Position numbers and translations under genes: made by a program. From Anaerolineales bacterium (lineage in GTDB: Bacteria; Chloroflexota; Anaerolineae; Anaerolineales; RBG-16-64-43), in the NCBI GenBank assembly GCA_016928575.1, contig JAFGKK010000135.1, forward strand, positions 1 to 64,000: 64,000 bases of DNA, written 5' to 3'. Position 1 is the first letter of the stretch. Every line of letters starts with the position of its first letter. A model generated the notes under the pieces. The model saw nothing but the letters and a program-made list of their open reading frames with translations. It did not search any database and was not told the DNA's origin. This document shows, piece by piece, positions 7,023 through 60,736 of the stretch.

Positions 7023-7058
7023 CTTTCACCACAGAGGCGCGGAGAGCAAAGAGGATTG
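7023..7058. repeat. Dispersed CACCGCAGAGGCGCAGAG-type repeat, copy 1
   Basis: TTTCACCACAGAGGCGCGG followed by AGAGCAAAGAGGAT matches the copies at 31176, 57307 and 58578. It lies in the short gap between ychF and the flavin reductase gene. Confidence 0.6.
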
Positions 7059-57306: not shown

Positions 57307-57350
57307 CGTTTCACCGCAAAGGCGCACAGAACAAGAAGGATCGAAAAAAA
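57307..57350. repeat. Dispersed CACCGCAGAG-type repeat, copy 3
   Basis: TTTCACCGCAAAGGCGCACA, then GAACAAGAAGGATCG. Immediately after the cytidine deaminase stop. Confidence 0.6.
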
Positions 57351-57738: not shown

Positions 57739-58527
57739 CTACTTCTTCACCATTACGGCCTTCAACCTGCGGGCCAGCGGTTCCTTCAGCAGAATGGTCT
57801 GACCCAACCGGTAGGGAACCGTGTTCCAATTGCGGACATCGAAGGGCAGGTCGGAAAGGGGAGTCGAACAAATGTGGACGGTCGGCTTGCGCAGGGCGTG
57901 CGCGTATCCGGCTTCGTACAGCACGTTCGGCTTGGCCTCCGAAAGGTCGACGATCACGGCCGCGCTGGACCGGATCAGACGTTTGATCTCGGCGACGATG
58001 TCCCCCGAAAATTCCTTGCGGTCCACCCGCCGGCATTCGGCGCCGACCTGCTCGGCGGCATGCGACATGGCGATGAAATAGGTGTCGTCGTATTCGCCGG
58101 CGAACGGCATGGCGGCGAAGACCGTCCGGCGCGGCCGGGCCTTCGCCGGGCTTTCCGCGACACCGGGAGCCGGTTTTTGCACGGGTTCGGAGTCCTCCGG
58201 TAGGCGGAAGTATTTCCGCAGGGCGGGGACGACCGCCTCCAGCTTGACCACCCCCTTGCGCCGGTAATTCTTTTTAAGGTCCGGCATGACGATCAGCGCC
58301 TCGTCGGCGCCGGTGGCCTTTTTGTACAACTGGACCTGGCGAAACGCGCGGGCGGTGTTGCCCCCGCGCGGATCCCAGAGTTTCACTTCGAGGACGATCT
58401 TCTCGCCGTGCGGACCGCTGACGATGAAATCCGGCCGCAGGCCGCCGATCGACGGCCGGCGGCGGTAGGAGATGCCCGCTCCGCGAAGCAGGTTCTCAAG
58501 CTTGTCTTCATATTGTTTTGCGCACAT
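57739..58527 (-). CDS. Fusion of a PD-(D/E)XK nuclease with a nucleoside 2-deoxyribosyltransferase-like domain
   Basis: A 262-residue two-domain protein. Residues 1-110 carry a restriction-endonuclease-like core: D33 (RPDFIV), E47 and K49 (VLEVKLW), plus an early glutamate. After a Pro/Ala linker (about 111-133), residues 134-235 match the nucleoside 2-deoxyribosyltransferase/TIR-like superfamily: FAAMPFAGEYDDTYF, VIVDLSEAKPNVLYEAGYAH with D194, N201 and E205. Such domains sense or cut nucleotides or NAD in conflict systems. Context: alone between palindromes and repeats. Defence function is an inference; both domains look intact. Confidence 0.72.
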   Translation of the reverse strand: MCAKQYEDKLENLLRGAGISYRRRPSIGGLRPDFIVSGPHGEKIVLEVKLWDPRGGNTARAFRQVQLYKKATGADEALIVMPDLKKNYRRKGVVKLEAVVPALRKYFRLPEDSEPVQKPAPGVAESPAKARPRRTVFAAMPFAGEYDDTYFIAMSHAAEQVGAECRRVDRKEFSGDIVAEIKRLIRSSAAVIVDLSEAKPNVLYEAGYAHALRKPTVHICSTPLSDLPFDVRNWNTVPYRLGQTILLKEPLARRLKAVMVKK

Positions 58528-58577: not shown

Positions 58578-58662
58578 CTTTTCACCGCAGAGGCGCAGAG
58601 AGCGCCAAGGTTGAGCAATAAACCTCTGCGTCCTCTGACCCTCTGCGACGAGTGTTTTTTAA
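58578..58662. repeat. Dispersed CACCGCAGAG-type repeat, copy 4 (most complete)
   Basis: TTTTCACCGCAGAGGCGCAG, then AGAGCGCCAAGGTTG, and on the right AACCTCTGCGTCCTCTG and CCCTCTGCGACG, so both arms of an imperfect palindrome are present. Confidence 0.65.
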
Positions 58663-59195
58663 GGCCATGAGACGTAGACGACGCCGAGCGCGAGCCGGTC
58701 GCCCGCCCGCAGGCGGATCAGGCGCGCGGTTTGATCGTCCGGCGCGACCTCCGCCGGGCACCAATTGTAGGGTGCGGACACGACCAGGAAGTAGCTTCCC
58801 GGCGGGATGCCGTCGAAGGCGAAGTTGCCGTAGAGGTCCGATCGGCCGGTGATGTCGCCGCGGGCCGGATCGGGGCCGGCCAGGAAGGGCGGCATGCCGT
58901 CGCGGTTTTCCCCCTGGGCCGGGGTCAGATAGAACATCGTCTCGGAGATGATTTTTCCGATGGTGTAGGAAAAGAGCGCGCCGGATAGCGACGCCATCCC
59001 GGCTTGGGGGGCGGGCGCGTCGGCGGGCGGGATCGGGGTGAGCAGGGCTTTCCCGGAGTCGGTCGCCACCGGGCCGAAATACTCGCCCGCGGCGGGGTAG
59101 GGATCCTCGGCGGCCGGGGCGGCCGGGGAGGAGGGTCGGCAGGCGGCCAGCGCCAACCCCAACCCGATACCTACCAACAGGGAGGGCCTGATCAC
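58659..59195 (-). CDS. Lipoprotein with a carboxypeptidase-regulatory-like domain
   Basis: A 178-residue lipoprotein with lipobox Cys19 (LALAAC). The C-terminal half (SDLYGNFAFDGIPPGSYFLV, then VSAPYNWCPAEVAP) matches a carboxypeptidase-regulatory/SpaA-like beta-sandwich, which usually gives stability or adhesion. Its start overlaps the end of the next gene (ATGA at 59192-59195), so it is the second gene of an operon with the secreted protein 59192-60736. Confidence 0.82.
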   Translation of the reverse strand: MIRPSLLVGIGLGLALAACRPSSPAAPAAEDPYPAAGEYFGPVATDSGKALLTPIPPADAPAPQAGMASLSGALFSYTIGKIISETMFYLTPAQGENRDGMPPFLAGPDPARGDITGRSDLYGNFAFDGIPPGSYFLVVSAPYNWCPAEVAPDDQTARLIRLRAGDRLALGVVYVSWP

Positions 59196-60736
59196 GGCAG
59201 GGCGCGGGTGAATACGCGGTGGGCCATGAACTGGTCGCCGCTGACGTTCTTGTAGTAGGTCAGCTGGACGTAGCCATCGATCGGCTGGCTGGAGGATTCG
59301 ATCCGGAGCGAGCCTTCCCAGTTGTTGGGCAGGGCGTTTTCGGCTTCGGCGCTGGAAGTGCCGGTGCCAAGCCGGTGGTTGCGCTGCAGACTGCTCCCGC
59401 CGGGGATCACCAGCCCTTCGATGATGATGGTGTCCGCGGCGTCGACGATCCCGTCGCGGTTGATGTCGCAGGTGCCGACGGGGCAGTTGCCGTTGGTGGC
59501 GGGGATGTAGATCAGCCGCAGGGCGGTTGTGGAATCGCCCAGGTTACGGACCCCGACCACGCTGGCGAACCCGTTGGGCAGGACCTTCGCCACCAGCGGG
59601 ACGAACATCACCCGGTCGGTGCCGCCGGCCTTCACCGCCTCGTAGGCCGAAGCGCCGATGTTGCCGGTGGGCGAGCCGTAATAGCGCATTTGGACGATGG
59701 CCGCCAGGTCGGCCCCGGACGCCTCCACCTCGCAAGTCCCGGCCCAGGCCACCGGATACAGTTGGGCGTCTCCGATCGGATTGAACGAATAGGATCCGTT
59801 CGGGGCGATTGCGGTCGGATTGGTGAAGTCCAATTCCCCGGGGTCGTTGCCCCAGATGGTGGCGCAGTGCATCGCCAGCGCGCCGGCGGCGATTTCCGCG
59901 CCGCCGATGTTCTGCACGGTGATCACCGTGCTCAGCCCGTTCTCCAGGCGCGAGAAGAAGATCGGGACGATCCACTCCGGACCGAGGTCTTCGGCGGGGA
60001 AGGCGTTGTAGGTCTGGAGGATGTCGGGGCCCTGGTAGAAATTCGAAACGACGGTGATTTTGCGCGACCCAAGCGCGGTGACCACCGCCGAGCCGATCCA
60101 ATTGTCCGGCAGGTTGGTCTCTTCGGTGAGATCGTAGTAATAGGAAACGCCGGGTTGGATGGAATCGATGGTGCGGGTGTAGGCCCCGGACGATTCGGCG
60201 TTGGGGACCAGATCCACCGTGACGGTGACCGCTTCGGCGTCGGCGTTTTGAATGATGATCTCGCTGTTGCCGGTGCCGCTGAGGGTGAAGCGGTTGCGGG
60301 CCACGAGTGGGACGTAGTAAACGGAATGGCCTTCCAGGAAGCCGGTGTAAGCCCCTTGGGTCGGGGTCTGGCCGCGGGCCTGGATCTGGACGATGGCCCC
60401 CACCGGGCGGTCGGCGGCGATCACCACCGAGCCGCGCCCCGGCTGCATGGTCGGATCGAAATACTGTTTGATCTGGATCGATCCGCCGTTGGCGGGAAGG
60501 TTGAAGCTGAGGTTCCCGGCCGAAACGCCCGGCCAATCCGCTCCGCTTTCGAGCAGGTAGGAGATGGCGCCGGCGGCGGGATTGTCCCGATCCAGGTTGA
60601 CCAAGGTGAAGTTGGTGCTCAGCTGCTTGGCGGTGGCGGCGGCCCGCGCCTCCCGGGGCGCGGAAAGCGCAAGCGCGGCCAGCACCGCAACGGCGGCGAC
60701 GAGGGCCTTGCGGCGGAGCGATGGTCGATGAATCAT
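59192..60736 (-). CDS. Secreted surface protein with a dockerin-like calcium motif
   Basis: A 514-residue exported protein: signal peptide (RRKALVAAVAVLAALALSAP, cut near AREARA), two or three similar beta-rich repeats (FTLVNLDRDNPAAGAISYLL; TVITVQNIGGAEIAAGALAM; ASVVGVRNLGDSTTALRLIY), each with an N-rich strand, and a single dockerin-type loop CDINRDGIVDAADTIII at about 425-441 that can bind calcium. The repeats share the pattern V-x-N-x-G/D. Probably a cell-surface or S-layer-associated protein. Single dockerin repeats may bind a cohesin, but none is seen here. Confidence 0.82.
   Translation of the reverse strand: MIHRPSLRRKALVAAVAVLAALALSAPREARAAATAKQLSTNFTLVNLDRDNPAAGAISYLLESGADWPGVSAGNLSFNLPANGGSIQIKQYFDPTMQPGRGSVVIAADRPVGAIVQIQARGQTPTQGAYTGFLEGHSVYYVPLVARNRFTLSGTGNSEIIIQNADAEAVTVTVDLVPNAESSGAYTRTIDSIQPGVSYYYDLTEETNLPDNWIGSAVVTALGSRKITVVSNFYQGPDILQTYNAFPAEDLGPEWIVPIFFSRLENGLSTVITVQNIGGAEIAAGALAMHCATIWGNDPGELDFTNPTAIAPNGSYSFNPIGDAQLYPVAWAGTCEVEASGADLAAIVQMRYYGSPTGNIGASAYEAVKAGGTDRVMFVPLVAKVLPNGFASVVGVRNLGDSTTALRLIYIPATNGNCPVGTCDINRDGIVDAADTIIIEGLVIPGGSSLQRNHRLGTGTSSAEAENALPNNWEGSLRIESSSQPIDGYVQLTYYKNVSGDQFMAHRVFTRALP

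Follow-up and report, generated by a model that had tools for sequence, protein, structure and literature searches.

How might a single small protein that joins a PD-(D/E)XK nuclease fold to a TIR/DrHyd-like domain be wired, and what would it serve? Bacterial immune and stress circuits usually keep TIR/DrHyd enzymes apart from PD-(D/E)XK nucleases. A small protein that has both, inherited stably within Anaerolineae and seen in a single Verrucomicrobia genome, would offer a compact model for the coupling of DNA recognition to nucleotide or NAD cleavage. We found no description of such a fusion in the searchable literature, to which each domain and the broader theme are familiar. The gene analysed here, from a 64,000-nt stretch of an Anaerolineales contig (the window), is a rare but genuine bacterial gene that resembles parts of immune systems and is placed in an ordinary, stable chromosomal spot; its role is putative.

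A genuine gene under purifying selection

The gene occupies positions 57739..58527 of the minus strand, where an ATG at 58527 opens a frame that reads down to 57739 without an internal stop and encodes 262 aa, with an REase-fold N-terminal domain (N-domain) and a TIR/DrHyd-like C-terminal domain (C-domain). The plus-strand frame of the same interval contains a stop and has nothing to support it, and was rejected. All residues named in an earlier note on this locus can be read directly from the translation (D33, E47 and K49; D194-x6-N201-x3-E205). The N-domain also contains Q64-x3-Y68, on which that note was silent and which, we presume, recalls motif III (QxxxY) of RecB-like nucleases.

Beyond the source genome, close relatives over the full length turned up in just three genomes: L002, from the same genus (genome G001); L003, from another genus of the same family (G003); and L004, from a Verrucomicrobia MAG. 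Their full-length identity to the target is 75-79%, 76-80% and 55-59%, respectively, depending on the method. In the three Anaerolineae comparisons, dN/dS was ~0.14-0.18 for the N-domain and ~0.09-0.15 for the C-domain, being lower in the C-domain in two of the three pairs and approximately equal in the third; purifying selection acts on both domains alike. Given the full-length homologues and these ratios, 57739-58527 is a genuine gene and no chance ORF. Identity to L004 is 71% in the C-domain and 48% in the N-domain, the N-domain evolving faster.

Two domains assigned by fold and motif

A search of NCBIfam with the target protein gave no match, a PDB sequence search with the full protein or the N-domain alone gave no meaningful one, and no match in any library (Pfam, PADLOC, NCBIfam) reached a curated cut-off; the domains are therefore assigned at the level of fold and motif. 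The PD-(D/E)XK-like domain covers residues 1-105 (58213..58527, minus strand) and carries D33, E47, K49 and Q64-x3-Y68. Modelled alone (pLDDT 80.5), it has its secondary-structure elements in the expected order (H3-16, E20-22, E34-37, E43-48, H56-72, E76-80), a predicted core alpha-beta-beta-beta-alpha-beta fold as in the PD-(D/E)XK superfamily. Its top Foldseek matches are nucleases of this fold, at E = 1.5e-3 and weaker, with Cas4 SSO0001, NucS, XisH, EndoMS, Can2 and Card1 falling between 1.5e-3 and 5e-2 (probability mostly 0.9-0.99); HMM searches added a weak match to Mrr_cat/MTES_1575 (E = 0.003-0.004), obtained only in the L004 orthologue. D33, E47 and Q64 are identical in 4/4 aligned orthologues and K49 is kept in three of the four, the site of the E47-V48-K49 codons (58381..58389, minus strand) reading E-A-R instead of E-x-K in L003. 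L003 is still under purifying selection as judged by dN/dS, and the exchange of K49 for R, a conservative change, is no proof of lost activity.

A variable linker of low model confidence, residues 106-132 (58132..58212, minus strand; pLDDT <50 at 116-121 and 123-129), differs in length and sequence among the orthologues and leads into the C-domain, residues 133-262 (57742..58131, minus strand), which contains D194, N201 and E205 and resembles DrHyd, nucleoside 2-deoxyribosyltransferase (NDT) and TIR domains by HMM, model and Foldseek. The Foldseek matches in the PDB comprise SPARTA TIR, NDT, MilB and DNPH1 (E = 3e-5 to 1e-3). The Pfam model Nuc_deoxyrib_tr (PF05014) scores 20.1 bits, under its cut-off of 28.8, and for this reason the C-domain was not filed as an NDT enzyme proper: it is a relative of NDT at the fold level only. 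The PADLOC model 'Effector, TIR' (PDLC00733) was matched at E = 2e-5, a low-scoring match that spans only the C-terminal part of the model. An HMM search places E205 (codon 57913..57915, minus strand) opposite the glutamate of 'YELG' in DNPH1/Rcl, albeit at weak E-values of 0.07-0.2. Among aligned relatives with a letter at the position, which were gathered with a profile centred on that same motif, the E205 site is Glu in 64/64, across many partner domains, and the D194 site is Asp or Glu in 62/64. The model thus predicts a domain of the DrHyd/NDT/TIR class, Rossmann-like and with a conserved catalytic-type Glu after the strand-3 region, and the acidic conservation looks like the pattern of an enzyme family rather than that of a decayed sensor.

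In the full-length AlphaFold model (10-row alignment; mean pLDDT 82, pTM 0.54) each domain is well modelled and their relative placement is not. The key fold elements of both domains are present in the models, and the PD-(D/E)XK and deoxyribosyltransferase-like assignments of the earlier note were both upheld by AlphaFold and Foldseek.

An ordinary chromosomal block

A block consisting of genes for a GT4 protein, a repeat-like surface protein and a small lipoprotein-like protein, followed by the target and a convergent cdd, is kept in 3/3 Anaerolineae carriers, with glmU and a response regulator next along the block in the window and in L002. Between these two, identity is 75% for the target, 79% for cdd, 80% for glmU, 80% for the lipoprotein and 71% for GT4, the target diverging about as fast as its neighbours. 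Two sampled sister-genus genomes (assemblies 72% and 89% complete) have glmU and cdd and lack the target together with the adjoining surface-protein gene. The gene is thus a lineage-specific one, passed on vertically within the two Anaerolineae genera. The probable surface protein itself (window 59192-60736, minus strand; 514 aa) has no Pfam match. Its conservation in two related genomes is 81-86%, and it lies upstream of the target in every case. Also upstream of the target, the repeat CTCTGCGCCTCTGCGGTGA at window 58582-58600 forms part of an inverted repeat and recurs at 57311-57329 and 7026-7044; five copies occur in the genome at <=1 mismatch, and a reversed control gave 0.

PADLOC, run on seven neighbours, recognized no defence protein and gave only a generic receiver-domain match; no recognised defence gene lies within about 5 kb in the three Anaerolineae, and no signal synthase fitting the target was seen among the neighbours tested. 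L004 is neighboured by PAS_6 and POR-type oxidoreductase genes. The defence-island setting in which the earlier note had proposed to look for the fusion was therefore not what we found: in the three Anaerolineae the locus is an ordinary conserved chromosomal block. Nor does the fusion occur only in nucleotide-metabolism operons, which that note had taken as the finding that would speak against defence: cdd (cytidine deaminase) adjoins the target but is convergent, and membership of the target in such an operon was rejected on that ground.

A rare fusion of a widespread domain

An N-domain profile matched 2/400 Chloroflexota genomes, both already known carriers, and in the Verrucomicrobia sample the fusion occurs in 1/289 genomes. 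The C-domain is widespread (28/400 and 13/289 genomes of the two samples, E<=1e-8) and is also found on plasmids and in Gram-positive phages; phage and plasmid searches matched the C-domain alone and never the fusion, and a viral-contig scan with the four-sequence alignment gave no confirmed relative. Transfer between phyla is probable, although a misbinned L004 contig would give the same picture. The partner domains of C-domain relatives include HTH_17, Response_reg, Trans_reg_C, TPR-S and SLOG cluster 4, a winged helix and a receiver thus being among the input-type modules joined to this family.

A distant protein of the same architecture, L033 (L072:5288-6184), occurs in genome G071 of another Chloroflexota family. 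It was matched by the whole-length profile at E = 4e-10, and has the same order of REase-like and DrHyd domains and an identical D-x13-E-x-K spacing; compared with the N-domain alone, the match is weak (hhalign probability 23%, E 9e-4). Full-length matches of this type are sporadic, occurring in 1/41 genomes of its family. L033 is very divergent from the target. Its gene shares 16 bp with the preceding one, which encodes an apparent-TM protein, and a ParE-like toxin gene is nearby.

Which domain is the output

Published work assigns domains like the C-domain to the TIR-DrHyd-SLOG class, in which active members break N-glycosidic bonds and inactive ones sense nucleotides (PMC9503650). Either domain of the fusion might be the output. 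The reading that we favour, with a probability of about 0.42, is that the DrHyd domain is the catalytic output, controlled by a DNA-engaging REase-fold input, in a stand-alone regulatory or effector protein. The N-domain would engage DNA, perhaps also nicking or cutting it, and this engagement would switch the activity of the C-domain, which would use E205 as its catalytic Glu to break an N-glycosidic bond in a substrate that is probably NAD+ or a (deoxy)nucleotide; the biological role may be a stress or phage response. We prefer this arrangement because of the invariance of E205, the better conservation of the C-domain and the K49 to R exchange in one orthologue. It is further supported by the fusions of the C-domain family, whose partners (HTH_17, receiver, winged helix, TPR-S, SLOG) are of the usual input kind, and by the nearest solved folds, SPARTA TIR and the NDT/DNPH1 N-glycosidases. 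Against it, D33, E47 and Q64 do not vary among the four orthologues and K49 is kept in 3/4, so that the real output may be an active nuclease site; the 64 relatives were gathered with a motif-centred profile, the Pfam score is under its cut-off, and syntenic, clock-like inheritance equally suits housekeeping. A more specific possibility, which we consider decidedly doubtful, is that the protein is self-contained and DNA-triggered: on detecting or cutting DNA, the nuclease-fold domain would directly turn on the TIR/DrHyd enzyme, an NADase or nucleotide N-glycosidase. If true, this single protein would be a counterpart of SPARTA encoded by one gene and lacking Argonaute, and L033 an independent-looking second version.

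The earlier note had suggested the opposite wiring, with a sensor domain that activates the nuclease. In such a ligand-gated nuclease the C-domain would bind a nucleotide signal and might slowly degrade it, upon which the PD-(D/E)XK domain would cut DNA in the manner of Card1/Can2. Both of these, solved with cA4, are among the Foldseek matches of the N-domain, and the retention of D33, E47, Q64 and mostly K49, as of the D-x13-E-x-K motif at equal spacing in the distant L033, is what an active nuclease would require; yet the tested neighbours include no cognate signal synthase, L003 has lost the lysine to arginine, and the family-wide, enzyme-type catalytic pair of the C-domain exceeds the needs of a pure sensor. 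We regard this wiring as somewhat unlikely: the domain identities stand, whereas the direction is one of two options and the evidence tilts toward the C-domain as catalytic output. An unlikely explanation, too, is a housekeeping role in DNA repair or in the sanitation of nucleotides, in which, for instance, DNPH1-like removal of a modified nucleotide would be combined with NucS-like handling of damaged DNA. It would fit the structural matches (DNPH1 for the C-domain, NucS/EndoMS for the N-domain), the adjoining cdd, the chromosomal position fixed in three genomes of two genera and a divergence like that of cdd, glmU and the surface-protein genes, but cdd, being convergent, is not co-transcribed, the gene is missing from the two sister-genus genomes that have the glmU-cdd region, and it is found in so few genomes of the phylum, and so sporadically in Verrucomicrobia, as to sit poorly with a general function. 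Most improbable is a decayed or scaffold protein, both domains of which would bind nucleotide or nucleic acid but catalyse nothing; the exchange at K49 and the weak family scores are in its favour, and the remaining catalytic-type residues, all kept under purifying selection, speak against it.

As for the proposal of a single-gene defence protein, it is conjectural: the domains resemble immune-system parts, and the location and neighbour-like divergence argue against an island. A conflict role would be backed, by analogy, by members of the C-domain family that neighbour TIR and SLATT genes on plasmids, occur in phages, or are fused to SLOG and TPR-S.

Likeness to known systems

With the DrHyd superfamily, PF05014 and DNPH1/Rcl, the C-domain shares a Rossmann-like fold and a catalytic-type Glu in a YE(A/L)G context with a conserved acidic residue ahead of it, but differs in its sub-cut-off Pfam score, its own MPF and PFD motifs and the fusion to an REase fold. 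The TIR domain of SPARTA (TIR-APAZ), whose TIR subunits bind NAD+ in the activated complex according to a PDB entry title, is among its best Foldseek matches, and the PADLOC TIR-effector model PDLC00733 matches it too; membership of SPARTA was rejected, as the 262 aa contain no APAZ domain and no short Argonaute partner is present among the neighbours scanned, and the PADLOC match is partial and low-scoring. Card1 and Can2, CARF-REase effectors, likewise combine a PD-(D/E)XK domain with a nucleotide-handling Rossmann-like domain in one chain, but in reversed order; the C-domain matches DrHyd/TIR and not CARF, and no type III or other CRISPR gene adjoins the target among the genes tested, so that this membership was also rejected. 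NDT/TIR-like effectors serve in phage defence, as in Retron-Eco1 and the DUF4062 (Swarozyc) NADase (PMC12887533, PMC13174449). The target resembles these in effector principle; it has no Swarozyc auxiliary domain, and with no retron RT partner among the genes scanned it was not classed as a retron effector.

Several relatives have settings of their own. At L072:4698-6184 in G071, the gene that overlaps the REase-like and DrHyd fusion gene encodes a 201-aa protein with hydrophobic stretches that, judged by eye, resemble two TM helices, and a ParE-like toxin gene lies in the region; the pair is a candidate two-gene conflict system. On the Rhizobium leguminosarum plasmid p_2 (L063:4737-5591), SLOG cluster 4 is fused to the DrHyd-type C-domain, and a nearby gene carries a restriction endonuclease annotation. 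On an Aeromonas caviae plasmid (L065:4950-8900), two TIR-domain genes and a SLATT gene adjoin the gene of a C-domain protein annotated as TRAFs-binding, in surroundings of insertion sequences, and matches of this type recur on plasmids from several further genera.
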